Positions 2,398 through 21,092 of a DNA stretch of 33,099 nt are shown here, one piece after another. The stretch comes from Phocaeicola coprophilus DSM 18228 = JCM 13818 (lineage in GTDB: Bacteria > Bacteroidota > Bacteroidia > Bacteroidales > Bacteroidaceae), in the NCBI RefSeq assembly GCF_000157915.1, contig NZ_EQ973632.1, positions 310,022 to 343,120 on the forward strand, read 5' to 3'. The position numbers and the translations under genes were made by a program. The notes below the pieces were generated by a model. It made no database searches. It worked only from the letters and a program-made list of their open reading frames with translations, and was not told the origin of the DNA. Each line of letters begins with the position of its first letter. The stretch's first letter is position 1.

Positions 2398-3069
2398 ATG
2401 GAAAAAGAGACTGGTTATGTATATATATTGACAAATCCGAGTTTTAGAGAAGATTGGGTTAAGATCGGTAAAAGTTCACGTCCTGTGGATGTTAGAAGCA
2501 AAGAACTTGACAATACAGCCGTACCTTTGCCTTTTGAGATTTATGCGACTCTCAAGACCTCTAAATATGCTAAGGTTGAGAAACAAATACATAAGCAAAT
2601 TGATCGCCTGACAGATCTGCGTATAAGGCAGAATCGTGAATTTTTTAATATAGCCCCGTCTGTTGCTTTGGACATTATGCGGGATATAGCTGATTTACTT
2701 GATGACGCCGAGCTATATGTGTATGTTGATGGAAAGCCTGTTGTCAGCAAAAGTAAAGATGAGGATAAGAAGATAGAAGCAGAATCTAAAGAAAAACAAC
2801 GCAAAACTCAAAAGCCTCCGTTTAAGTTTCATATGATAGGCTTGAATGTGGGAGATACAATCATTTTTGATGCACTTCAGATTCCTGTCAGAATAGCCAG
2901 TGATGATAAGATTGAGTATGATGGCCGTCTGTATAGTCTCTCTGCATTTACAGCTAATTTTCTGCCAGAAGAAAAGCAAAACGCATCGGGAGCATACCAA
3001 GGTCCTAAATATTTCAGTTATAATGGTAAGGTATTGAGTGATTTGAGAAAGGAAAAGGAACAGCATTAA
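2398..3069 (+). CDS. GIY-YIG nuclease-family protein (T5orf172/Mug113 type)
   Basis: This 223-residue protein has an N-terminal GIY-YIG domain of the T5orf172/Mug113 kind at about 6-95: GYVYIL (6-11), VKIGKS (21-26), arginine R33, glutamate E61 with H65, and REFF (80-83). After a charged lysine/glutamate linker (about 115-140) comes a separate C-terminal domain (about 142-220), rich in VGD, YDGRLYSLSAF and SGAYQGPKYF segments, which I cannot name firmly. GIY-YIG domains cut DNA with one metal ion; this subgroup is often found beside restriction systems. It is the first gene of the block, 14 bases before hsdM, so a job in the same defence system is likely but not shown. Confidence 0.8.
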   Translation: MEKETGYVYILTNPSFREDWVKIGKSSRPVDVRSKELDNTAVPLPFEIYATLKTSKYAKVEKQIHKQIDRLTDLRIRQNREFFNIAPSVALDIMRDIADLLDDAELYVYVDGKPVVSKSKDEDKKIEAESKEKQRKTQKPPFKFHMIGLNVGDTIIFDALQIPVRIASDDKIEYDGRLYSLSAFTANFLPEEKQNASGAYQGPKYFSYNGKVLSDLRKEKEQH

Positions 3070-3083
3070 AAAGTAAATTATAT

Positions 3084-5006
3084 ATGATAAATATACGAAA
3101 ACTTGAAGCGGAACTTTGGGAATCGGCTGACCTATTGAGACAAGGCAGCAAACTGACAAGTAACCAGTATTGCATGCCCGTCTTGGCTTTGCTGTTTCTT
3201 CGTTATGCTTATAGCAGGTATAAATTGGTGGAAGCAGAGATATTGAAAGATCGTCCTTCGCGTGGAGGAAGAGTAATGCCTGTTGAACCAAGCGATTTTG
3301 AAGCAAAAAGCGCACTTTATCTTCCTCGGGAAGCTCAGTTTGATTTTCTTGTCAATTTGCCGGACAATATCACTTCTGCCGGACTGAGAAATAAGGACGG
3401 ACAGCCGGTGAATTCATTGGGTGAAGCCGTAAACAATGCAATGCAACTGGTGGAAGAGCAAAGCGAACAGCTTACAGGTGTATTGCCAAAAACATATACG
3501 ATATTCGCCGATGATTTGCTCCGTGAATTGCTGCGCATTTTCAATAATAAGACCATTGATGAAATAGGAGGTGACATTATAGGCCGAATTTACGAATACT
3601 TTCTTTCAAAATTTGCAAAGGCTGTAGCCAGCGACGATGGGGTTTTCTTCACGCCGAAGTCTTTGGTGAAAATGCTGGTCAATGTGCTGGAACCGGAACA
3701 AGGCGTAATGTTCGATCCTGCATGCGGTTCGGGCGGTATGTTTGTTCAGACCGGTGATTTTGTAAATGCGGCAGGAATGAACGCCAATACGCAGATGACA
3801 TTCTTTGGTCAGGAAAAAGTGGAATACAACGCCCAGCTCTGTCTGATGAATATGGCTGTTCATGGTCTTAACGGACGTATTGTGTCGGGCGATGAAGCCA
3901 ATTCGTTCTATCATGATGCGTTCAATCTCGCAGGCAAATGCGATTATGTGATAGCCAATCCTCCTTTCAATGTGGATAAGGTAAAATCGGAGTCGGCTTT
4001 CAATGCGGGACGCCTTCCTTTCGGACTGCCTGGTGTCAATGCCAAAACCAAGGAGGTGGGCAATGCCAATTATCTTTGGATTAATTATTTTTACGCTTAT
4101 CTGAATGAGCGTGGACGTGCCGGCTTCGTCATGGCAAGTTCAGCTACCGATAGTTCCAACAAGGACCGCGACATCAGGGAACAGCTGGTAAAGACCGGAC
4201 ATGTGGATGTAATGGTCAGCGTAGGGAACAACTTTTTCTACACATTGTCATTGCCTTGTTCTCTGTGGTTTTTCGACAAGGCTAAACGGGAAGAAAACCG
4301 CGATAAGGTGCTTTTTATAGATGCCCGTAAATATTATACTGTTGTTGACCGCACTCTGAACGAATGGACTGAATGGCAGCTGCTCAATTTACAGGCAATC
4401 GTCCATCTTTACCGTGGAGAAACAGATAAATATCAGGCATTATTGGAAAAATACAACCAGACTATCAGCGAGGCCGTAAATTCTATTTCGGAAGAATCTC
4501 TGTCATTTTTTCCCCTCCTTGACAGCGAAACTGCCGGTCAGTTCAACAGTTCATTGACATGGCTTAACAGTCCGTGGAACAATTATGATGAATTATCCAG
4601 GAATTTGAACGGACAGATAGAGCAAACCAAGAGTTGCGTCAGGTTGGCGGAAGAAAGGCTGAAAAAGCGTGAACTAAAACCCATGAGGCTGGCAGGAGAT
4701 AAATTCTGCAAAGTTCTTGAGGAAATTCTGACGATTATAGAAGAACACGAATGGCTGACTGGAAAATTCGGTAAAGGCGAGTATAACGACATTGCCGGTC
4801 TCTGTAAGATTGCCACACTGGCCGAAATCGAAGAAAAGAACTATTCGCTCACGCCGGGTGCCTACGTGGGTGTTCCGGAGGCAGAAGACGACGGTGTGGA
4901 TTTTCACGAACGTATGAATGAAATTCATGCGGAACTGGCAAAACTTCATGAAGAAGCAAACGTGCTTATGAAGGGAATATTAAATGACTGGGAGAAGCTG
5001 AAATGA
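3084..5006 (+). CDS. hsdM: Type I restriction-modification DNA methyltransferase subunit
   Basis: This 640-residue HsdM transfers methyl from S-adenosylmethionine to the N6 of adenine in the site chosen by HsdS. It has an N-terminal helical HsdM domain (about 5-160), then the methylase core: FFTPKSLV (188-195), the SAM-binding DPACGSGGMF (211-220) and the catalytic NPPF (292-295). The C-terminal 150 residues are rich in charged helices, suited to contact HsdS. Length is somewhat above the usual 500-550, as in the longer N-6 DNA methylase subfamily. The ATGA at 5003-5006 overlaps its stop with the start of fic, so the two are translationally coupled. Confidence 0.95.
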   Translation: MINIRKLEAELWESADLLRQGSKLTSNQYCMPVLALLFLRYAYSRYKLVEAEILKDRPSRGGRVMPVEPSDFEAKSALYLPREAQFDFLVNLPDNITSAGLRNKDGQPVNSLGEAVNNAMQLVEEQSEQLTGVLPKTYTIFADDLLRELLRIFNNKTIDEIGGDIIGRIYEYFLSKFAKAVASDDGVFFTPKSLVKMLVNVLEPEQGVMFDPACGSGGMFVQTGDFVNAAGMNANTQMTFFGQEKVEYNAQLCLMNMAVHGLNGRIVSGDEANSFYHDAFNLAGKCDYVIANPPFNVDKVKSESAFNAGRLPFGLPGVNAKTKEVGNANYLWINYFYAYLNERGRAGFVMASSATDSSNKDRDIREQLVKTGHVDVMVSVGNNFFYTLSLPCSLWFFDKAKREENRDKVLFIDARKYYTVVDRTLNEWTEWQLLNLQAIVHLYRGETDKYQALLEKYNQTISEAVNSISEESLSFFPLLDSETAGQFNSSLTWLNSPWNNYDELSRNLNGQIEQTKSCVRLAEERLKKRELKPMRLAGDKFCKVLEEILTIIEEHEWLTGKFGKGEYNDIAGLCKIATLAEIEEKNYSLTPGAYVGVPEAEDDGVDFHERMNEIHAELAKLHEEANVLMKGILNDWEKLK

Positions 5007-6058
5007 GTATGAACCATAAGATAGAAACATTGCTTTCCCTGCTGGATGAATATAAGGCATTGGGCATTGCGGAGCAGATAGACTACAACAAGTTCTATCT
5101 GTATTCCCTTATTACCCATTCCACAGCCATTGAGGGCAGCACAGTCACTGAAATAGAGAACCAGTTGCTTTTCGATGAAGGTATCACGGCAAAAGGCCGC
5201 AGCCTGCAGGAGCAGATGATGAATCTGGATTTGAAAGCGGCATACGAACAGTCAATGAAGCTTGCCAAGGCGCATGCTGATTTTTCTGTCGATATGCTAA
5301 AAGGCTTGTCTGCTTTGGTGATGAAAAACACAGGTGGAGAATATAACACAGCAAGCGGTAGTTTTGACTCGTCGAAGGGAGAATTGCGTTTGCTTGGTGT
5401 TACAGCCGGTGTAGGAGGAAGTTCCTATATGAATTTCCGGAAAGTTCCTGCCAAATTGGAGGAGTTTTGCCAATATATAAACAGTCAGCGAAAGGAACTG
5501 CTGAGTACAGACGATGCAATCTCCAAATATAGGCTTAGTTTTGAAGCTCATTACCAGCTTGTCACCATTCATCCTTGGGTAGACGGAAACGGACGCATGT
5601 CAAGGCTGGTGATGAATCATCTGCAATATGAATTCGGTCTGATTCCTTCGAAAGTAGTCAAGGATGATAAGGCAGAATATATCCAGTCGCTTATGGATGC
5701 ACGAGAACAGGAAACGCTTTTTCCTTTCTATGAATTTATGTTCGACGAACATATTCAGAACATAAGTAAAGAGATTGAAGCATACAAGAAGTCACAGGCT
5801 GCTGACCTGATAAAACCGGTATCTGACCCGATAAATGATATATCTGACCCGATAACAGAACGCTTGTATCAGGCTATTCTAAAGAATAATAAACTGAATT
5901 ATGCTGAATATGGAGCGTTGTTGGGTGTATCGGAAGCAACTATCAAACGCCGTTTGGGTGAGTTGAGGAAAGTTGGGATGATTGTGCGTATGGGTAGTAA
6001 TAAGAGCGGATATTGGGAAGTGGTAAGTTTGAAGGATAGAAAGGAGGAAAAGGTATGA
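5003..6058 (+). CDS. Fic-family protein embedded between hsdM and hsdS
   Basis: This 351-residue protein has the Fic active site HPWVDGNGR (190-198), a close match to HPFx[D/E]GNGR, so it should be able to move AMP or a related nucleotide group onto a protein. An N-terminal inhibitory motif of the (S/T)xxxE(G/N) type is visible as STAIEG (40-45), which marks a self-inhibited class II Fic. A two-copy heptad SDPINDI/SDPITER (274-287) links to a C-terminal winged-helix-like DNA-binding region (about 290-342). It overlaps hsdM by ATGA and hsdS by ATGA, so its production is tied to both. Its target is unknown; it could regulate the R-M complex or act as a toxin. Confidence 0.92.
   Translation: MSMNHKIETLLSLLDEYKALGIAEQIDYNKFYLYSLITHSTAIEGSTVTEIENQLLFDEGITAKGRSLQEQMMNLDLKAAYEQSMKLAKAHADFSVDMLKGLSALVMKNTGGEYNTASGSFDSSKGELRLLGVTAGVGGSSYMNFRKVPAKLEEFCQYINSQRKELLSTDDAISKYRLSFEAHYQLVTIHPWVDGNGRMSRLVMNHLQYEFGLIPSKVVKDDKAEYIQSLMDAREQETLFPFYEFMFDEHIQNISKEIEAYKKSQAADLIKPVSDPINDISDPITERLYQAILKNNKLNYAEYGALLGVSEATIKRRLGELRKVGMIVRMGSNKSGYWEVVSLKDRKEEKV
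5821..5855 (+). repeat. 21-bp direct repeat inside fic
   Basis: ATCTGACCCGATAA occurs at 5821-5834 and again at 5842-5855, exactly 21 bases apart, so the unit is seven codons (SDPINDI, SDPITER). It encodes the linker between the Fic core and the helix-turn-helix region. Copy number could change by slippage without breaking the frame. Confidence 0.8.
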
Positions 6059-7266
6059 GTGAATGGAAGAAAGTGAAGTTGGGAAAATTATGTGATATCA
6101 CTTCTAGTAAAAGATGTTTGGCATCTGAGAGAAGTAATAATGGTATACCTTTTTATTGTTCAAAAGAAATAATTCTTTTAGAAAAAGGTGAAGAAATTAG
6201 AGATTCTGATTACATACCTATAGAATTATATTTATCCATTAAAGAAAAATATGGAGTACCTATAACTGGAGATTTACTTTTAACAACAAGAGGAACAAAT
6301 GGCATTCCTTATATTTATAAAAAACATGATTGTTTTTATTTCGCAGACGGAAATCTCTCTTGGTTTAAAAATTTCAAATCTGATCTTGATGTTAAATATT
6401 TATATTATTGGTTTAAATCAGATACTGGGAAACATATTATTGATTCTATTGCAAAAGGAACAGCACAAAAGGCAATACCTATTGATGGGTTACGTAATAT
6501 AAATATTTCTATTCCATCAATTCGTGTTCAATGTAAAATATCTGAAATCCTTTCTCATTACGATACATTGATAGAAAACTACCAAAAACAGATTAAGTTA
6601 TTGGAAGAATCAGCACAGCGTCTTTATAAAGAATGGTTTGTTGATTTACGTTTTCCAGGGTATGAGAATACTAAGATTGTGGATGGGGTGCCGGAAGGAT
6701 GGGAGAAGAAAGAAATTAATGAATTTATATCAATATTGAGTGGATATGCTTTTAAAAGTTCCTCTTTTGTAGAAGATGGAGATTATAAAATAGTAACGAT
6801 AAAAAATGTACAAGATGGTTTTTTTGATGGGAAAAATTTAAGTCATATAAGAGAAATACCCAATAAAATGCCAAAACATTGTTTTTTAACTACAGGTGAT
6901 TTACTACTATCCTTGACAGGAAATATAGGACGAGTTTGTATGGTTATTGGTAATAACTATTTACTAAATCAACGAGTTGCTAAAATTGAATCAGTTTTTC
7001 CGGCTTTTGCCTATTGTTTATTTAGAAGTGAAAATTTGTTCACTTCGATAAATAATTTAGCGAATGGAGCAGCTCAGCAGAATGTTAGTCCAATAAAGAT
7101 TGGTACATTGAAGATAGTAGTAAATAATGAAATAATCTCTAAATTTGAGAAGGTTGTAGGTAATATACGAAACCAGATATTAGTATTGTATTCTCAAATT
7201 GAAGAACTTACCGAAGCCCGTGACCGCCTGCTTCCCAAGCTGATGAGTGGAGAAATAGAAATATAA
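6055..7266 (+). CDS. hsdS: Type I restriction-modification specificity subunit
   Basis: This 403-residue HsdS has the standard two-half layout: target-recognition domain 1 (about 1-150), a coiled-coil spacer with ISEILSHYDTLIENYQKQ and KLLEESAQRLYKEWF (about 163-196), target-recognition domain 2 (about 215-360), and a second conserved coiled coil ending in ARDRLLPKLMSGEIEI. The subunit reads the bipartite DNA target for both methylation and cutting. It overlaps fic by ATGA at 6055-6058. The recognition domains are visibly more AT-rich than hsdM, as expected for fast-exchanging segments. I saw no second partial hsdS or recombinase nearby, so no phase-variable shuffling is evident. Confidence 0.94.
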   Translation: MSEWKKVKLGKLCDITSSKRCLASERSNNGIPFYCSKEIILLEKGEEIRDSDYIPIELYLSIKEKYGVPITGDLLLTTRGTNGIPYIYKKHDCFYFADGNLSWFKNFKSDLDVKYLYYWFKSDTGKHIIDSIAKGTAQKAIPIDGLRNINISIPSIRVQCKISEILSHYDTLIENYQKQIKLLEESAQRLYKEWFVDLRFPGYENTKIVDGVPEGWEKKEINEFISILSGYAFKSSSFVEDGDYKIVTIKNVQDGFFDGKNLSHIREIPNKMPKHCFLTTGDLLLSLTGNIGRVCMVIGNNYLLNQRVAKIESVFPAFAYCLFRSENLFTSINNLANGAAQQNVSPIKIGTLKIVVNNEIISKFEKVVGNIRNQILVLYSQIEELTEARDRLLPKLMSGEIEI

Positions 7267-7284
7267 ACCTAAAATAGAAACAAT

Positions 7285-8619
7285 ATGCACGATATTACAA
7301 TAAAAAATTTCCGATGCTACGAAGAAAAAAGTATGGAATTTCGTAGAGGAGTAAATTTGTTGATAGGAGACAACTCTGTCGGTAAAACTTCGTTATTACA
7401 TGCCTGCAATTTGGTAATGAGTGCTTTCTTTTCCGGCTATAGCGATGAAAATACGGTATGGATTAGTGCAGATGAAAATGATTTTAGAAATACCGGTATT
7501 ACCGAGCAGCCTGTTGAAATTCTATTTCATCCGGGAGAATGGGATTTTAATACAATTTCGACACCTATAGGCGAATCATATTCTCTGGTTAGAGATGTGG
7601 ATTTAAAGATTGAAAAGAAGTCGAAGAAGAACTCACGGAACCTTCTTTCTGGCTTGATACCTTTAAGGAACTACGCAAGTAATCTGAAACTTTGGTCGCA
7701 TATTGTATTGAAAGATAAAGGAATCAAACAGATTAATCCTTTACCAGTTTATGCCTGTTTTACCACAGAAGATATTCATTCAACTGTCAAGTTGGAAAAA
7801 AACAAGTTTAAGACATATGTACAAAAACCTTCTTTCGGATATTACGGATGTAGTGATTGTAGAGGTTTGCTTGAATGCTGGATAAAACGCCTGCTTGTAT
7901 TGAAAGAAGCTCAAAGAGGTGAGGAGGAAATTAATTCCGTAAGAAATGCCATTATCGATGCATTAGGCACTGATGGGTGTAATATCATCAATGATATGGA
8001 TATACGTCATAATGAAGGCAAGGTATATTTCAAGTTTGTTGACGGACGCGAATCAGAATCCGCTTTGTTGTCCGACGGTTACCGTCGTTTGGTGAATATT
8101 GTGATGGATATTGCTTTCCGTTGTGCTTTGCTCAACAAATCTATGTTTGGCGATCAGTGTTACAAACATACGCATGGCACTGTCATTATTGATGAGATAG
8201 ATGAACATCTGCATCCGGCTTTGCAAGTTCGTGTACTAAAAGCATTGCAAGATACATTTCCAAAGATTCAGTTTATAGTAAGTACACATGCTCCGCTGGT
8301 GATGTCATCGGTTGAACCGAGAAAAGATGAAAACGGAAATGATATCAATGTTGTGTATAAACTGGAATATATTGATGGGGAATACATGCATAAGGAATTG
8401 AATATCTACGGAATGGATGCTTCAACAATTATTGAAACATACATGGGGCAGCCTTCGCGAGACTTGAAAGTAAATAATGATATTAAATCTATACTGGAAT
8501 TAATAGATAAAGGTGATATTCAAACAGCGAGGAAATTGTTGGAAGAGTTAGAGAAGAATATTGCTAATGGTGATCCGGAATTGACAAGAATGGAAGCATT
8601 AATCTCATTTATGGAATAA
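7285..8619 (+). CDS. SMC/ABC-like AAA ATPase, PtuA-like (Septu-type) candidate
   Basis: This 444-residue protein is an ABC/SMC-type ATPase of the AAA_15/AAA_21 kind. Walker A is GDNSVGKTS (28-36), a signature-like LLSDGYRR is at 261-268, Walker B is TVIIDEIDEHLHP (299-311) and the switch histidine is in STHAP (333-337). The middle (about 100-250) is the family-variable insert. The next gene, 8 bases on, is an HNH nuclease of the PtuB type, so the pair resembles Septu PtuA-PtuB, in which the ATPase controls the nuclease. It is shorter than many PtuA proteins and no retron reverse transcriptase is present. It lies 18 bases after hsdS, where PrrC sits in EcoprrI. An OLD-like role is less likely because no TOPRIM domain is visible. 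Confidence 0.85.
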   Translation: MHDITIKNFRCYEEKSMEFRRGVNLLIGDNSVGKTSLLHACNLVMSAFFSGYSDENTVWISADENDFRNTGITEQPVEILFHPGEWDFNTISTPIGESYSLVRDVDLKIEKKSKKNSRNLLSGLIPLRNYASNLKLWSHIVLKDKGIKQINPLPVYACFTTEDIHSTVKLEKNKFKTYVQKPSFGYYGCSDCRGLLECWIKRLLVLKEAQRGEEEINSVRNAIIDALGTDGCNIINDMDIRHNEGKVYFKFVDGRESESALLSDGYRRLVNIVMDIAFRCALLNKSMFGDQCYKHTHGTVIIDEIDEHLHPALQVRVLKALQDTFPKIQFIVSTHAPLVMSSVEPRKDENGNDINVVYKLEYIDGEYMHKELNIYGMDASTIIETYMGQPSRDLKVNNDIKSILELIDKGDIQTARKLLEELEKNIANGDPELTRMEALISFME

Positions 8620-8627
8620 CAAGCCTT

Positions 8628-9317
8628 ATGATTCTGATTACAAAAAATAAAGAGCCGAAAGAGTGGACTGAGTATAGAAACACTCCAGGAGTAGATTATC
8701 AGGCTATTCCAGAGTTAGTCCAATCGCTTTTGAAGGAACAGGGATATATATGCGCCTATTGTATGCGAAGGATACCAACGAAAGACAAAATATATAAAAA
8801 AGATGGAGTAAACTTTGTCTATACCAATGAGGACCATCGCGTTGAGCACATCAAAAGCAGAGAACAACATGACGACTTAAAATTGGATTACACGAATATG
8901 GTGGTTTGTTGTCCCGGTCATATTGGAATGCAAGATCACTGTGATAGATTAAAAGGACCAAAGGATATTTCGTTTAGTCCAATTGATAAACAATTTATTG
9001 AGATGATCAGATACAGTTCCAATGGAGAAATATCTTCAACAAATGATGTGTATAATAATGAAATGAAAGATGTTCTTAATCTGAATACAGAACTGCTGCG
9101 TAGGAATAGGTTTTTAATGCTGACAGAGGTTATCATTCAAATCAATTCAACTTGTAAAAAAGGGAAAAACTGGGATAAGAGAACTTTGGAGCTGTTTTTA
9201 AAGAAATACAGTGAAAAGCATTCAGAAAAAGATGAAGAAGGAACAAAGGAAAAGTATTATCCATATTGCGGTATTATTATTTGGTATTTACAAAAGAAAC
9301 TACGAACTTTAGATTAA
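8628..9317 (+). CDS. HNH endonuclease, PtuB-like (TIGR02646 type) candidate
   Basis: This 229-residue protein has an HNH/treble-clef arrangement: CAYC (42-45), VEHIKS with H74 (72-77), YTNMVVCC (88-95) and HCDRLKG (104-110). This order of zinc cysteines, catalytic histidine and asparagine matches the TIGR02646 family, which includes PtuB, the nuclease of Septu and of retron Ec78-type systems. It follows the ATPase gene by 8 bases, so the two are very likely a functional pair. The likely act is cutting nucleic acid when phage infection is sensed; whether the target is phage DNA, host DNA or tRNA cannot be read from sequence. The C-terminal half is lysine-rich and unrecognised. The next gene is hsdR, 21 bases on. 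Confidence 0.85.
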   Translation: MILITKNKEPKEWTEYRNTPGVDYQAIPELVQSLLKEQGYICAYCMRRIPTKDKIYKKDGVNFVYTNEDHRVEHIKSREQHDDLKLDYTNMVVCCPGHIGMQDHCDRLKGPKDISFSPIDKQFIEMIRYSSNGEISSTNDVYNNEMKDVLNLNTELLRRNRFLMLTEVIIQINSTCKKGKNWDKRTLELFLKKYSEKHSEKDEEGTKEKYYPYCGIIIWYLQKKLRTLD

Positions 9318-9338: not shown

Positions 9339-12300
9339 ATGTCAATAGACTACAGCGAAGACCGACTCATACAGAAAAGTGCTGCTGAGTTAATGGAAAC
9401 AGAACTTGGTTGGACTTCTGTTTATGCATACGACAAAGAGGTATTGGGAGAAAACGGTACACTTGGCCGTAACAGTTTCCATGAAGTATTGCTTATACAA
9501 CGATTCCGACTTGCTTTGAAAAAGCTGAATCCGTGGATAAACGATAAGCAGATTGCAGAAGCTATTGAAAGAATGACGGAACGTATGAGCAGTCAGACTC
9601 TGATGCAGATAAACGAACAGAAATATCAGTTTATCCGTGATGGCATACCAGTAACACGCATAAAACAAGACGGCACATCGGAAGAAATAAAAGCTGTAGT
9701 CATAGATTTCGAAAATGCCGGCAATAATGACTTTCTATGCGTCAGGGAACTTTGGGTTTATGGTGCCCTATATAGGCGCAGAGCGGATATTGTGGGATTT
9801 GTAAACGGAATACCATTGCTGTTTGTTGAACTGAAAAACCACAATGTTGAAGTAGAAAATGCTTTTAACGAGAATTATCGGGATTATCTGGACACCATAC
9901 CGCAGCTGTTCTATCATAATGCCTTTATCATATTCAGTAACGGACTGGAAGCTCGTGTCGGTACCATTGATTCGAAGTGGAAATTTTTCCATGAGTGGAA
10001 ACGACTTACAGAATTGGATAATGGAAACATTGAGCTTCCGACAATGTTGCGCGGTATCTGTAAAAAAGAAAATTTCCTTGACCTGCTGGAAAACTATATC
10101 CTTTATGACCATTCCGACGGAAAAACGGTGAAAATTATGGCACGAAACCATCAGTATCTGGGAGTGAACCAGGCTGTGGAGATGTATAAAAACCGTGAAT
10201 ATGTAAACGGAAAACTAGGCGTTTTCTGGCATACGCAAGGAAGCGGCAAGAGCTATTCCATGCTGTTCCTTGCTTGTAAAATCAGACGGAAATTTGCGGG
10301 TTCGCCAACTATTGTAATCCTGACCGACCGAGAAGAATTGAACAAACAAATCAGTGACACATTTGAGAATTGCGGTGTGCTTGGGAATGTGAAAGCCAAA
10401 AGTTTCATTGCAAGCAGTGGGGATGATTTGATAACGAAGCTGAAAGGCAATCCTTCGTTCATATTCTCCCTGATTCAGAAATTCAACAAGCCTGATGCCG
10501 AACCAATTTATCCTGACCATGATATTATTGTGATCAGTGATGAAGCGCATCGTACGCAGAATGGAGTATTCGCAGAAAATCTTCTGCATTTGTTACCTAC
10601 AGCCAACCGTATTGGATTCACCGGCACACCTTTGCTGCGTGATGACAATATAACTGCCAGAACTTTTGGTGGATATGTCAGTATATACGACTTCAAACGT
10701 GCCGTTGACGATAAGGCTACTGTGCCGTTATATTATGAAAACCGCGGCGAACGTCTGAAGGAGCTGAAGAATCCGGAAATCAACGAAGAAATAGCTGCCG
10801 TTCTGGAACAGGCTGGCGAAATTGATGCTTCGCAACAGACGAAACTGGAACGCGAATTTGCCAAAGAGGTACATTTGCTGACAGCACCGAAACGCCTCAG
10901 AATCGTTGCGAAGGATTTTGTTCGCCATTACAGTGACTTGTGGACTTCGGGAAAGGCAATGGTAGTGTGCTACAACAAGGTGACTTGCGTACGCATGTAC
11001 AATTATGTACAGGAATATTGGCAGAAAGAAAAAGAATCGTTGGAAAAACAAATATCCAAATCCACCTATCAGCAGGAAGTACAAGAGTTGAAACGTAAAC
11101 TGGATTGGATGCAACAAACGGAAATGGCAGTTGTCGTTTCGCAAGAGCAGAACGAAATACAGACATTCCGGAAATGGGGACTTGACATTTTGCCACATCG
11201 TGAAAAAATGGAAAAACGCGAGCTTGACAAAGAGTTCAAAAGCACAGAGAATCCATTACGTGTGGTATTTGTCTGTGCAATGTGGTTGACCGGATTTGAT
11301 GTCAAGTCGCTTTCATGCCTTTATATCGACAAACCAATGAAAGCTCATACACTGATGCAGACTATTGCACGTGCAAACCGTGTGGCTGACGGTAAAGATA
11401 ATGGCTTGATCATAGATTATATAGGAATTGTAAAGGCTCTTCGTAAAGCATTGGCAGACTATACAGCCAGTCCGGAAGGTGGAGCCGATGGTAATGATCC
11501 GACAATTGATAAACAGGAACTGATTAAGCATGTGACAGAAACAATTTCTGCGGCAACAGCTTTTCTTAAAGAACATGATTTTGAACTGCAGGAACTGATT
11601 GATGCTGATACATTCTTGAAACTGTCGTTGTTGAGAACTGGGGCAGACACTGTATGTGAACCGATTGAAATACGTAAAAGCTACTGTACATACATCACTA
11701 CTTTGCTGAAATTATGGAAGTTCCTCGATCGTGATGATATCACGCAGGAAATGAAGCTGAGCAAGGATGCACTTGAGGCAATCTACAAAGAGCTGCAGAA
11801 AAAACGCAAACATGCTGACATCACTAATCTAAGTGTAGCGATTAATGCTATTGTTGATGAACATTTGGAATTGGATGCTGACAATATAGTAGCGGAAAGT
11901 GGTTCGAACCGTCGTTTTGATATCAGTAAAATCGACTTTGATTTACTCAGACGGGAGTTTGCGAAAAAGAGAGAAAAGAATCTGATAATGAAAGATATCC
12001 AGGAATTACTGCAGGAACGTATTGTTCAGATGATGGCAGCTAATCCCTCCAGAATTAATTTCTACGAGAAGTATCAGGAAATCATTCACAACTATAATGC
12101 TGAACAGAATAGGGCAAGCATTGAAAAGACTTTTGAAGATTTGATACACCTTACAGAAGAGTTGTCGGAAGAAGAAAAGCGTTACATTAGAGAGGGATTT
12201 GAAAATGATGAACAGCTTTCTTTGTACGATGTATTGTTTAAAGACGATTTGTCAAAAGAAGATATTAGAAAGCTGAAGAATGTAGCCAAAGACTTATTGG

Positions 12301-12491
12301 GTAAAATAAAGTCTATGCTAAAGACAATGGATCATCCATTTGACAAACAGGAAACAAAAGCTTCTATTGTTATTGCAATAAGGGATTTACTATGGCAAGA
12401 ACTACCTGAAAGTTATTCAGATGAAAGCATTACTTATTATCGTGATGCTGTGTTTAATTATATCAGCCAACGGTACGGTGGGGTAGCATGA
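9339..12491 (+). CDS. hsdR: Type I restriction-modification restriction (motor/nuclease) subunit
   Basis: This 1050-residue HsdR cuts DNA lacking the HsdM mark after ATP-driven translocation. The N-terminal PD-(D/E)xK-type nuclease domain shows RRADIVG with D150 and VELKN with E164 and K166. The SF2 motor has Walker A TQGSGKS (299-305), ILTDRE, DEAH (401-404), GFTGTP and a later helicase segment with QTIARANRV. The C-terminal 300 residues are helical and likely bind the methylase core. Length is normal for the family. It comes last in the block, split from hsdS by the ATPase-HNH pair, though gaps are short enough for one transcript. The frame is intact, so restriction should be functional. 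Confidence 0.96.
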   Translation: MSIDYSEDRLIQKSAAELMETELGWTSVYAYDKEVLGENGTLGRNSFHEVLLIQRFRLALKKLNPWINDKQIAEAIERMTERMSSQTLMQINEQKYQFIRDGIPVTRIKQDGTSEEIKAVVIDFENAGNNDFLCVRELWVYGALYRRRADIVGFVNGIPLLFVELKNHNVEVENAFNENYRDYLDTIPQLFYHNAFIIFSNGLEARVGTIDSKWKFFHEWKRLTELDNGNIELPTMLRGICKKENFLDLLENYILYDHSDGKTVKIMARNHQYLGVNQAVEMYKNREYVNGKLGVFWHTQGSGKSYSMLFLACKIRRKFAGSPTIVILTDREELNKQISDTFENCGVLGNVKAKSFIASSGDDLITKLKGNPSFIFSLIQKFNKPDAEPIYPDHDIIVISDEAHRTQNGVFAENLLHLLPTANRIGFTGTPLLRDDNITARTFGGYVSIYDFKRAVDDKATVPLYYENRGERLKELKNPEINEEIAAVLEQAGEIDASQQTKLEREFAKEVHLLTAPKRLRIVAKDFVRHYSDLWTSGKAMVVCYNKVTCVRMYNYVQEYWQKEKESLEKQISKSTYQQEVQELKRKLDWMQQTEMAVVVSQEQNEIQTFRKWGLDILPHREKMEKRELDKEFKSTENPLRVVFVCAMWLTGFDVKSLSCLYIDKPMKAHTLMQTIARANRVADGKDNGLIIDYIGIVKALRKALADYTASPEGGADGNDPTIDKQELIKHVTETISAATAFLKEHDFELQELIDADTFLKLSLLRTGADTVCEPIEIRKSYCTYITTLLKLWKFLDRDDITQEMKLSKDALEAIYKELQKKRKHADITNLSVAINAIVDEHLELDADNIVAESGSNRRFDISKIDFDLLRREFAKKREKNLIMKDIQELLQERIVQMMAANPSRINFYEKYQEIIHNYNAEQNRASIEKTFEDLIHLTEELSEEEKRYIREGFENDEQLSLYDVLFKDDLSKEDIRKLKNVAKDLLGKIKSMLKTMDHPFDKQETKASIVIAIRDLLWQELPESYSDESITYYRDAVFNYISQRYGGVA

Positions 12492-17191: not shown

Positions 17192-20010
17192 TTATTTGGT
17201 AGCCGGAGTACTCATGCTGACTTCAATGACATTGTTCTGTCCGATGAAAGCTTTGGCAAATGCTTTCAGATCATCGATCGTAACGCCATTTACGGTTGCT
17301 TCGTAGTCCTTGTTCATGTCCAGACCGGTCCAGTAGAACTCATTCAGAGCGCCCATCCAATAGCCGTTTTCCTTCTGGTTCTGCTGATAGGTCTTCAGCA
17401 TGTATTCTTTCACCTTGTTGAGATCTTCGGTGGCCGGTCCGTTGGCGATGAAGTCCTGCAGACCCTGCTTGATCAGTCCTACCATCTGTTCGCGGCGGTT
17501 CGGATCTGTATCGAAGTAGATGTTCAAGGTTCCTTCTTCCTGCGGATACTTGCTGATGGAAGCCCAGCTGCTCACACCGTAGGTACCGCCTGCTTCTTCA
17601 CGTACGGTACGGGTGTAGAGAATATCCAGCAACTGGTCGAACATGCTCATCATGATCTTGTTCTTCAGGGTATACGGGCAGTTGCCGCTGTACACCATCA
17701 TGATGCTTGATTTGGCTGTTTCCATGTCGCGGATGAAGTTGTTTTCGTAATCACCCTTGCGGATATCCATCTTCGGATCGCGGAAGTTTTCCTTGCGGCT
17801 GATGGTCGGCAGTCCGCCCAGATACTGCTCAATCAGCGGAGTGGCAGTGGCCAGGTCAATGTTACCTACCAGCAGGAAGGTGAAGTCGCCTGCTTCTGCA
17901 TAGCGGTTCTTGTAGAGTTCCATGATCTTGTTGTAGTCCACCTTGTCCATCATTTCAGCTTTCAGACGGAGGGCACGCGGATGATGGTTGTAGAGAGCTA
18001 CGGCCAGTGAGTCGTTGAAGGTACTCATCGGGTTGGCAGCCTGGTTGGCCAGGGCAGCCTTGCCACGCTGGATGTATGACTGGAAGGCTTCCTGATCCAT
18101 ACGCGGAGCCGTGAAGTTCAGGTAAACCAGCTGGAGCATGGTTTCCAGGTCTTTCGGAGAACAGCTGCCACCGAGTCCTTCGGTGAGGGTACTTACGGAT
18201 GCATTGACAGAAGCCACTTTTCCGGCCAGTACTTTGCTCAGGTCTACGGCGCTGAAGTTACCCAGTCCGCCCAATGGAACGACTTCGTTCATGACGGAGA
18301 ACTGAAGGACATCCTTGTCATCGAAGAGAGAGTTACCTCCGGGGCTGAATGCCTTCATGCGGATTTCATCGGCCTTGAAGTCTGTCGGTTTCACGATCAC
18401 GCGTACACCGTTGCTCAGGGTCAGGATGGTTGATCCGAAGGCTCCCTGTTCAGTCTTCACCACTTTGCCGGCCTGCGGTTTCTCCTTCAGCAGCGGCTCG
18501 TTGGATACCTTGTCCACGTAGGGTTCCAGTTTTTCAGCCTTCACCTTGTCGATCACGGCTTTCAGTTCGGCTTCTGTGGGGTATTTCATGCCTTCCTTTT
18601 CCGGACAGAATACGCTGAGGGCGATATTCTTTTCCTGGATCAGCTGTTTCATCACCTGGTTCACGGCTTCTACCGGAATGTTCGGAACGATCTGGTTCAT
18701 GAGCGGATATTCGTTTTCGATACCCGGAATCGGTTCGTTGTCGATGAAGTGACGTACGTACTCTTTGACGTAGCTGTTTGTACGCTGTTTGTCTCGTTCA
18801 TTATAGGCAACTTCCAGACTGCGGAGGTAGTCAGCTTTGGCACGTGCATATTCGCTGGCGGTAAATCCGAACTGGCGTACGCGTTCGATTTCGCGCATCA
18901 GGGCTTCCGTAGCGGTCAGGATGCCGTCTTCCTTGGCAGCGGCAATTCCCATGAAAGCACCTTTGGTTTTTGACAGCAGGTAATCTCCGTCACCGGCAAA
19001 AGCCTGGATGAAGGGAGCATCAGCCTTCTGGGTCAGTTCTTCCAGACGGGTGTTGAGCATGCTTTCGATCATGGAAGTCAGGTAGCTGTAGACCATGTAG
19101 TCCATGTTGCCCTTTTCTTCCGGTTTGACGGCTTCATGCTTGTGGAAAAGGTAGATGATAGGTATGTTCTGTTCCTTGTCCTTGGCAACGGCAATCAGCG
19201 GTTCGTCGTTGTCGGGCACAGGGAAGTAAGTACGTTCAGCAGGGTTCTCCGGCATTTCGATGGGAGAGAACATTCTCTTGATCTTGTTTTCGATGGAGTC
19301 TACATTGATATCTCCCACGACAACGATTCCCTGCTGGTCGGGGCGGTACCATTTTTCATAATAGTCACGCAGTGCCTGATAGGGGAAGTTGTCCACCACT
19401 TCCATGGTTCCGATGGGGAGGCGGTATGCATCTTGCTGTCCTTGTAGAGAACAGGCAGTACGGTTTCATACATACGCATCATGGCTCCCATGCCTGTGCG
19501 CCATTCTTCGTGGATGACTCCGCGTTCCTTGTCGATTTCTTTCGGATCGAGGGTCAGGTCGTTGGCCCAGTCGTGAAGGATCAGCAGACAGGAGTCAACT
19601 ACGCTTTCGCGGGTAACGGGGACGTTATTGATGTTATAGACCGTTTCGTCGATGGAAGTGTAGGCATTCAGGTTGGCTCCAAACTTCACTCCGATGCTTT
19701 CCAGCCATTCACGCAGGGTATTGTCGGGGAAATGGGTTGTTCCGTTGAAACACATGTGTTCCAGGAAGTGGGCCAGACCGCGCTGGTTGTCGTCTTCCAG
19801 AATGGAACCTACCTTTTGGGCAATATAGAAGTCAGCCTGTTTTTCCGGCAGAGCATTGTGACGGATGTAATAGGTGAGTCCATTGTCCAGTTTACCGATG
19901 CGTACGTTGGAATCAACCGGAATCGGAGGCATCTGTTGTTGGGCAAATGCCATTGTTGCTCCTCCCGTAAGCAGGATAGCAACAAATGTTTTTCTGATTA
20001 GTCTTTTCAT
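17192..20010 (-). pseudogene. M16 (insulinase-family) zinc peptidase, broken by a 1-base frameshift
   Basis: Translation from ATG 20010 gives a signal peptide ([20 protein letters not shown], cut near AFA-Q) and an M16 peptidase with zinc site HFLEH (81-85) and E162 in KERGVIHEE, spaced HxxEH-x76-E as in the family. After residue 193 (KDSK) the frame runs into nonsense. The proper continuation, [15 protein letters not shown], resumes in another frame and stays open to TAA at 17192 (737 residues counted from an internal ATG). The break is one missing base at about 19431-19432, where a codon such as TAT is expected. With it restored the protein would have about 939 residues, the usual two-module length. 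It could be a true pseudogene or an assembly error. Confidence 0.85.
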
Positions 20011-20080
20011 AAATGTATGTGTTTGTAAAAAAAAGTGTTCTCGTTTTCCAAACCTGTTCCTAAATAAAGGCAGGAAATCG

Positions 20081-20133
20081 CACAGGCCCGGGGTGCAGGG
20101 AAGGTCAGCCCTAGCCGTCAGTTCGGGCCTGTG
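20081..20133 (-). terminator. Stem-loop after trxB
   Basis: CACAGGCCCG (20081-20090) is perfectly complementary to CGGGCCTGTG (20124-20133), with a 33-base loop. It lies just past the trxB stop on the minus strand and before the M16 gene. The T-run after it is poor (GATTTCC), so it may act as a weak terminator or as an RNA 3'-end stabiliser. Confidence 0.5.
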
Positions 20134-20144
20134 TGTATGGGGGA

Positions 20145-21092
20145 TTACAGCAGTCCGTTGGCCGACAGGTAGCGTTCTGCTTCGATGGCAGCCTTGCATC
20201 CGCTTCCGGCAGCTGTGATAGCCTGGCGATAGTGCGGGTCGGCTACGTCACCGGCAGCGAATACTCCGGGCACACCGGTACGGGGAGTACCTTCTTCCGT
20301 AAGGATGTATCCGGTTTCGTCTGTCTTTACCCACGGCTTGAACAGCATGGAGTTGGGCTGGTGGCCGATGGCCAGGAAGAATCCGTCGATGGCTACGTCG
20401 TAGCGTTCTTCGTCGGCTTCACCCATACGTTTCACCACGTGCATACCTTCCACTCCGTTATCACCATACAGGCCGACTGCATTGTGTTCGAACAAAACGG
20501 TGATGTTGGGGTGATTCAGCACGCGTTCCTGCATGATCTTCGAAGCGCGCAGGAAAGGCTTGCGTACCACCAGATAAACCTTGCTGGCCAGTCCGGCGAG
20601 GTAAATGGCTTCTTCGCAGGCGGTATCGCCTCCACCCACTACGGCTACCGTTTTCTTGCGGTAGAAGAATCCGTCGCAGGTTGCACAGGCGCTCACACCC
20701 ATGCCGGCATATTTCTTTTCATCTTCCAGACCCAGGTATTTGGCTGTGGCACCGGTAGAGATGATGACCGTATCGGCTGTAATTTCCTTTTCTTCATCAA
20801 TGATGAATTTGTAAGGGGCCTGGCTCAGGTCGGCCTTGGTTACGATTCCGTTGCGGATATCGGCACCGAAGCGTTCTGCCTGTTTGCGCAGGTCGTCCAT
20901 CAATACAGGACCCGTCACACCTTCCGGATAACCGGGGAAGTTTTCCACTTCGGTGGTGATGGTCAGCTGGCCGCCCGGCTGCAGTCCTTCGTAGAGTACG
21001 GGAGCGATGTTGGCACGGCTGGTATAGATGGCAGCAGTGTAACCTGCCGGTCCTGATCCGATGATCAGGCATTTCACATGTTCAGTTGTCAT
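20145..21092 (-). CDS. trxB: Thioredoxin-disulfide reductase
   Basis: This 315-residue FAD/NADPH enzyme reduces thioredoxin in the cytoplasm. It shows the FAD-binding GSGPAG (12-17), the redox-active CATC (136-139), the NADPH-binding GGGDTA (153-158) and the C-terminal FAD segment [16 protein letters not shown] start at ATG 21092 ([10 protein letters not shown]), not the TTG nine bases earlier, because family members start at this point. It follows the DUF4836 lipoprotein gene by 29 bases on the same strand and appears to close the ftsK-lolA-DUF4836-trxB set, with a hairpin right after it. Confidence 0.96.

Follow-up and report, generated by a model that had tools for sequence, protein, structure and literature searches.

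Does a restriction–modification (R-M) operon that encloses an ATPase and a nuclease also control them? PrrC, whose slot in EcoprrI the first-pass annotation puts between hsdS and hsdR, is the classic case of a restriction system restraining a suicidal tRNA nuclease. An ATPase–HNH nuclease gene pair occupies this interval of a type I operon in Phocaeicola coprophilus, and the first-pass annotation of the locus proposed, by analogy with PrrC, that the R-M complex could guard the pair. The window considered here is the whole stretch of DNA analysed, i.e. 33,099 nt (NZ_EQ973632.1, 310,022–343,120) of a 4.04-Mb genome.

Layout of the operon

Six genes on the + strand constitute the operon. They encode a type I methyltransferase (hsdM, 3084–5006; 640 aa; N6_Mtase 250.7 bits, HsdM_N; PADLOC MTase_I 893 bits), a Fic-domain protein with a C-terminal helix-turn-helix (5003–6058; 351 aa; Pfam Fic 58.1 bits, HTH_24; PADLOC SoFic 97.8 bits), the specificity subunit (hsdS, 6055–7266; 403 aa; Methylase_S 91.6 bits), PtuA (7285–8619; 444 aa), the HNH nuclease PtuB (8628–9317; 229 aa) and the restriction/translocase subunit (hsdR, 9339–12491; 1050 aa; HSDR_N, SWI2_SNF2; TIGR00348 481.6 bits, above cut-off). 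The type I set is complete, since HsdM, HsdS and HsdR each carry their own domains in Pfam, PADLOC and TIGR profiles. The successive gaps are −4, −4, 18, 8 and 21 bp, which bears out the earlier description of a pair 8 bp apart sitting exactly between hsdS and hsdR (18 bp after the first, 21 bp before the second); the fic gene, absent from that description, overlaps both hsdM and hsdS. From this spacing, a single transcription unit is likely. Between 2100 and 13100, promoter-like sites (29 for 32.2 expected) and terminator-like sites (7 for 6.9 expected) are at chance level, weak promoter-like sites at 7248–7275 and 9287–9315 lie close to the borders of the ptuAB cassette, and the one match to a Bacteroides-type promoter (0.5 expected by chance) is on the opposite strand inside ptuA. 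The GC content of hsdS, ptuA and ptuB (30–37%), against 41–45% for hsdR, fic and hsdM, is compatible with separate acquisition.

Just 5′ of hsdM stands, likewise absent from the first-pass description, a T5orf172/MUG113 ORF of GIY-YIG type (2398–3069; PADLOC candidate PDC-S57, 227 bits). The scanned flanking genes are of housekeeping types (pnuC, thiamin pyrophosphokinase, DMT_6, M16 peptidase, FtsK and others). On the − strand, 17192–20199 carries M16 peptidase domains divided between a pair of ORFs that overlap in different frames, as could result from gene disruption or from a frameshift in the assembly.

Identity of the nested pair

The ORFs at 7285–8619 and 8628–9317 are a Septu type I PtuA–PtuB pair with intact catalytic residues. 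The PADLOC model of PtuA (PDLC00272) covers residues 1–444 of 444 with 765 bits, and that of PtuB (PDLC00322) gives 234 bits, so that the PtuA/PtuB-like assignment of the first-pass annotation holds at the level of profiles as well as of folds, which match Septu and retron PtuAB. PtuA also matches Pfam AAA_15, AAA_21 and, weakly, DUF2813, and its best Foldseek hit is a chain of a Septu complex (8eea_D, E 1.6e-23). PtuB reaches 44.6 bits against TIGR02646, below the curated cut-off of 52.15, and matches zero Pfam families at E ≤ 1e-3; its predicted model shows the PtuB fold in structure alignment. The ATPase head of PtuA (7285–8400, codons 1 to ∼372) contains Walker A (28–36, with K34), the signature LSDGYRR, Walker B (D303/E304) and H335; the C-terminal helical tail (8401–8619, approximately residues 373–444) has its AF2 helices between 379 and 443. 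K34, D303, E304 and H335 are invariant in an alignment of 31 sequences, and H74 and N90 of PtuB are intact. Within the otherwise strongly conserved head, residues 76–150 (7510–7734) are variable (mean conservation 0.75–0.84 in 51 non-redundant sequences), a possible sensing or escape surface judging from the sequence.

Three related assignments are ruled out. A retron effector (retron I-A Ec78/Eco7) would require a reverse transcriptase, and the operon has none, hsdS and hsdR being the neighbours of ptuAB; as stated at first pass, a Pfam scan of 20 window proteins finds no reverse transcriptase family, and the NCBIfam cut-offs for retron-type PtuA and PtuB are missed (NF041760, 150 bits versus 500; NF041761, 83 versus 150). 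A PrrC or RloC homologue is excluded by the Pfam scan, in which the HEPN domain is absent, and by the PtuB fold of the second protein. The pair is not PARIS (AriAB) either, given that the partner is a PtuB HNH protein instead of the AriB Toprim protein.

Like Septu type I systems (8ee4, 8eea, EcB88), the window has a PtuA-family ATPase with a PtuB-family HNH nuclease directly downstream, but a type I R-M operon encloses the pair, and identity to the solved chains is ∼15–22% in structure alignments. The effector folds also resemble those of retron I-A Ec78/Eco7 PtuAB (Septu type II), from which the window differs by lacking a reverse transcriptase. Cleavage of tRNA-Tyr has been published for the PtuAB proteins of retron-Eco7 and Septu EcB88; in the latter, the Walker residues of PtuA and the H and N of PtuB are essential (PMC11555353, PMC13096335). 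In contrast, DNA is the reported target of PtuAB from Septu ATCC25922, and tRNA is said to be an improbable target for retron-Eco4 (PMC11555353). The solved relative closest in sequence is PtuA of the E. coli Septu 8ee4 (108 bits, versus 76 bits for retron Ec78), and thus a DNA substrate is quite possible. Since two published PtuAB systems cleave tRNA-Tyr, the window pair, as a candidate tRNA nuclease, may by analogy be PrrC-like not only in place but also in function.

Cargo sites in related hsd operons

A search with the window HsdR in 251 genomes of the family (E ≤ 1e-80) gives 29 places in 27 genomes, of which 21 were examined, window included. Among the loci with HsdRs at least 74% identical, plus that of Ca. 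Phocaeicola faecipullorum (G013), 12 contain a complete hsdS–hsdR interval. The interval is empty in two (G255, G108), holds PtuAB in two (window, G013), other defence-type genes in four and uncharacterized ORFs without a clear defence profile in four (G294, G225, G082, G066). The defence-type cargos are AbiU (G275, 609 bits), an AAA_15 ATPase with a second ORF (G245; PDC-M29A, 152 bits) and a McrBC-like pair with extra genes (G017, G258), accompanied in G258 by an AAA_21 protein. Among incomplete intervals, G085 shows a McrBC-like pair before its contig end, and G208 and G181 end too early. The DNA varies between conserved borders, i.e. the hsdS 3′ end on the left (similar in 12 loci) and the hsdR 5′ end on the right (conserved in 13 loci). 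Seven more distant HsdR loci (28–38%) contain Fic (G260 and, with weak similarity, G082-C57), Schlafen-AlbA (G237), an AbiL/RloB-type pair (G177), a DUF6978/DUF1828/M78 set (G162) or nothing (G114, G148). The hsdS–hsdR slot is thus a cargo site in relatives of the window HsdR, and its alternation between other genes and none suggests a swappable second line of defence.

A second cargo slot lies between hsdM and hsdS (5003–6058 in the window; relatives in L105–L115). It holds Fic in the window, G013, G275 and G294, YhcG/DUF1016 proteins in G255 and G225, and PDC-S02 proteins in G017 and G082.

Nesting at these sites has precedents. In EPEC, DarTG2 sits between hsdS and hsdR (RRDM island), a site proposed as a potential recombination hotspot (PMC12255303); this second-line module has its slot in common with the window ptuAB, but it is a toxin–antitoxin pair and not an ATPase–nuclease pair. 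Operons combining R-M, a HEPN RNase and DOC have been described as defending on three levels (DNA, RNA and protein; PMC3710099), and the window set is similar, with PtuAB in the place of the RNase and Fic as a DOC-like gene.

Joint exchange of the PtuA tail and PtuB

Gene order in Ca. P. faecipullorum (L001/L065) is identical to that of the window operon, and this repetition rejects a chance juxtaposition of ptuAB and hsd genes. Identity between the two loci is 88.9% for HsdM, 84.6% for Fic, 40.1% for HsdS, 73.6% for PtuA, 26.8% for PtuB and 87.8% for HsdR. DNA identity starts only at hsdM, is confined to hsdM–hsdR, is low across ptuB and returns at hsdR. As the DNA of the hsdS–ptuA junction is nearly identical, both loci probably derive from one ancestral insertion; in this sample, PtuAB has entered the type I slot once, with two descendants.

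Within PtuA, residues 241–360 are 98–100% identical and the next 40-residue windows fall to 25–48%, with a drop near 372; the core (201–371) is 94% identical and the tail 33%. The break coincides with the boundary in the model between the ATPase core and the C-terminal helices (379–443). At this one pair of loci, the PtuA tail and PtuB have been replaced jointly, while hsdM, fic, hsdR and the PtuA head were kept. It is tempting to propose that the tail docks PtuB.

Database proteins give a similar picture for the tail. Homologues were taken as the best 120 of 1712 PtuA homologues and the best 120 of 1713, and 14 of 176 outside 440–452 aa were left out of the tail analysis. For head segment 76–175, 164 of 169 PtuA entries among the matches listed fall into one cluster; their tails, again among the matches listed, are of window type in 155, of Ca. 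P. faecipullorum type in eight and of a third type in one. One protein (P0123) combines a Ca. P. faecipullorum head (1.00, 1.00 and 0.96 by segment) with a window-type tail (0.88). Together with the tail distribution in a single head cluster, this indicates that the tail is exchangeable. A chimeric metagenome-assembled genome is an unlikely source of the swap, considering P0123 and seven database proteins with the Ca. P. faecipullorum-type tail. As to the donor, PtuB of Ca. P. faecipullorum matches 0 of 301 family genomes at E ≤ 1e-15, in a sample without G013 and without a positive control.

Recurrence of PtuAB in other operons

The window PtuA model was searched in 61 genomes of the genus, 399 of the family, 393 of the order and 395 of the phylum (overlapping samples; P-loop-only matches of the genus search were left unextended). 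Eight loci exceed 350 bits. Two have a type I R-M context (window, G013) and two a BREX context, between brxC and pglX (G449, G824). In G188 (L044, 8296–18001), PtuAB lies ∼0.8 kb upstream of genes that we take, from their Pfam domains, to be a Zorya-like set. The stretches retrieved for the remaining three (G052, G381, G164) yielded neither R-M nor BREX genes. Among these, the close relative G052 has no R-M gene in the 18 kb fetched; its adjoining ORFs of 849 and 299 aa are without PADLOC match, the former also without Pfam match. In G164 (L046, 535–2404), the PtuA sequence next to a PtuB-like ORF is broken over two frames and may be degenerate or misassembled.

More distant PtuA subfamilies are nested as well. 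Two loci with two different subfamilies show the type III R-M order mod–PtuA–PtuB–res (G111, L052 6660–13891; G017, L071 6551–12772; in G017, Mod 544 bits and Res 553 bits). A BREX locus (G012, L070 673–13116) has the order brxC–PtuA–PtuB–PsyrT–PsyrA–pglX-like, with two defence pairs in tandem. A HsdR beside an AAA protein in G042 (L062) is rejected as a further type I case, the PtuA match being partial and the C-terminal part matching RT-Toprim models.

A tree was built from 28 PtuA sequences, i.e. 32 extended loci plus the window, minus L046 (two frames), L062, L066 (split), L074 and L075 (weak). Seven are nested (two in type I, three in BREX and two in type III operons) and 21 have no such host found, including the Zorya-adjacent G188 and the close relative G052. 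Well-supported branches require at least five gains or losses of the nested label, which shows no significant clustering (64 of 500 shuffles gave as low a number). Given hosts of different kinds, several separate entries of PtuAB are likely.

A second sample, searched with PtuA model PDLC00278, gave 23 matches in 16 of 193 phylum genomes; 20 regions were read, the window and G824 being already known and G911 left out. Three of the 20 are nested (G998-C45, G990, G954). In G990 and G954, PtuAB stands beside pglX of BREX, followed in G954 by a GmrSD gene and PglZ. The G998-C45 operon (helicase–PtuA–PtuB–DUF1156 methyltransferase–DUF499) resembles BREX-related systems of PMC12839542, and its likeness to Hma is our own reading. 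Elsewhere, G861-C21 (L155) has PtuA without adjacent PtuB and two large unprofiled ORFs. In G998-C3 (L161, 1–5287), genes for a TIR-domain protein and a DNA methylase come after PtuA–PtuB, at the contig end on the PtuB side; this is possibly a further nested case. Besides type I, nested loci thus number two in type III, five in BREX and one in the DUF499/DUF1156 system; as the comparison of neighbours relied on a restricted reference set and selected Pfam and PADLOC scans, these are lower bounds and, with loci at contig edges (e.g. L060, L068), ‘no host found’ does not establish that a pair stands alone. No close PtuA relative was confirmed in viral contigs and the operon DNA has no match in plasmids, where PtuA matches 83 records, all below 60% identity among the 40 of 83 matches listed.

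This survey has a mixed bearing on the tie to type I R-M envisaged at first pass, since PtuAB is mostly unlinked to type I genes, with one type I entry, and nests in several other methylation-based operons. Septu type I is often associated with Hma (Payne et al. 2021, PMC8565338), and Septu beside or within this helicase–methylase–ATPase operon (PMC8565338, PMC12255303) differs from the window by its host system. OLD-ABC plus HNH dyads and PARIS-type backup effectors occur in BREX loci (PMC12839542); they are likewise ATPase–nuclease pairs in a methylation-based operon, and the window differs by its type I host. The names ‘PtuA’ and ‘Septu’ have zero occurrences in the main text of that paper. 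In the literature searched, most subscription journals and preprints being outside its scope, no description was met of PtuAB between hsdS and hsdR, of PtuAB between mod and res, or of a joint tail–PtuB exchange. The parts and the nesting principle are already known, and PtuAB in a type I slot is tentatively an arrangement absent from the literature searched.

Second line, passenger, guarded effector or sensor

The account that probably fits best is that of a Septu pair that travels as cargo between hsdS and hsdR in a mobile type I R-M operon, is co-expressed with the operon and serves as a self-silenced second-line nuclease. In its favour stand the profile and fold assignments, the invariant catalytic residues, the tight spacing on one strand, the order repeated in a second species, the changing contents of the slot, the nesting in type III, BREX and DUF499-type operons, the GC contrast and the published cleavage of tRNA-Tyr by two PtuAB systems. 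R-M would form the first line by destroying unmodified phage DNA. In the second, to judge from existing Septu and retron PtuAB complexes, PtuA would keep PtuB inactive in a multi-subunit complex and activate it once infection persists, e.g. when restriction is blocked. PtuB would then cut a nucleic acid on which both host and phage depend, tRNA being the likeliest and phage DNA the alternative, and phage production would stop. Against this account, an R-M host was found for only a minority of the surveyed PtuAB pairs, and a single type I lineage is present in this sample. The readings discussed below overlap with it, and their probabilities are not meant to sum to one.

PtuAB may alternatively be an independent passenger that gains only transport and expression from a site in a mobile defence operon that is prone to insertion or recombination, a reading that differs from the favoured account solely in denying a functional link to restriction. 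This is a possible but doubtful view. The varied cargo between conserved borders, the empty slots of G255 and G108, the four of 12 slots holding ORFs without defence profile, the loss of DNA identity to Ca. P. faecipullorum beyond hsdM–hsdR and the hotspot already proposed at this site (PMC12255303) all agree with it; a local hotspot, however, leaves unexplained why PtuAB sits in type III, BREX and DUF499-type operons, which have no hsd borders.

A stricter form of the favoured account is a guard of the PrrC kind, in which HsdM/S (or HsdM/S/R) binds and silences PtuA or PtuAB until a phage anti-restriction protein inactivates R-M and releases the effector. PrrC is embedded among hsdMSR and kept inactive by its own R-M enzyme (PMC3710099); the slot that the first-pass annotation assigned to PrrC is supported by that source as to this embedding and is not confirmed there as to exact position, and PrrC170 is listed in the order HsdR, HsdS, PrrC, HsdM (PMC11555353). 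Both arrangements place an effector within an hsd operon, join an ABC-type ATPase to a nuclease and may cleave tRNA; but PrrC is a single protein with a HEPN nuclease, the window has two proteins and an HNH nuclease, and silencing by R-M, described for PrrC, is hypothetical here. The PtuA core is kept while tail and PtuB change, as if the head retained a partner, although ATPase function explains this equally well. That PtuAB adjoins modification genes in operons of more than one kind also speaks for a guard, but the hosts (type I, type III and BREX) are non-homologous, the close relative G052 has no R-M gene in the stretch fetched, and the diversity of cargo shows that the slot does not impose one. 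With no such host found for 21 of 28 PtuA loci, that relative among them, the proposed R-M guard is unproven and appears unlikely.

The weakest candidate, a PARIS-like sensor in which the PtuA head alone detects a phage anti-restriction DNA mimic (e.g. Ocr) with no R-M contact, is improbable: AriA senses Ocr, activates a tRNA-cleaving nuclease and belongs to modules recruited to BREX (PMC12839542), nesting would be favoured if both systems acted on the same phages, and the variable segment 76–150 may be a sensing surface, but the similarity of PtuA to AriA (PADLOC 71 bits; PDB E 4e-4) is weak and within shared ATPase parts. We know of no trigger for this PtuA subfamily.

Returning to the second-line nuclease, a bolder and rather unlikely extension makes PtuA a modular sensor, whose head monitors the modification/restriction complex or its phage inhibitor and whose tail and PtuB are interchangeable cartridges. 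If true, the R-M operon would keep its alarm and change its weapon, and the principle would extend to nesting in type III, BREX and DUF499-type operons. The natural swap of tail and PtuB beneath a conserved head provides matched pairs for separating phage sensing from action. If PtuAB, which cleaves tRNA in two published cases, fills a slot of the PrrC kind in operons of type I, type III and BREX systems, ATPase–nuclease backup of restriction would be a recurring design.
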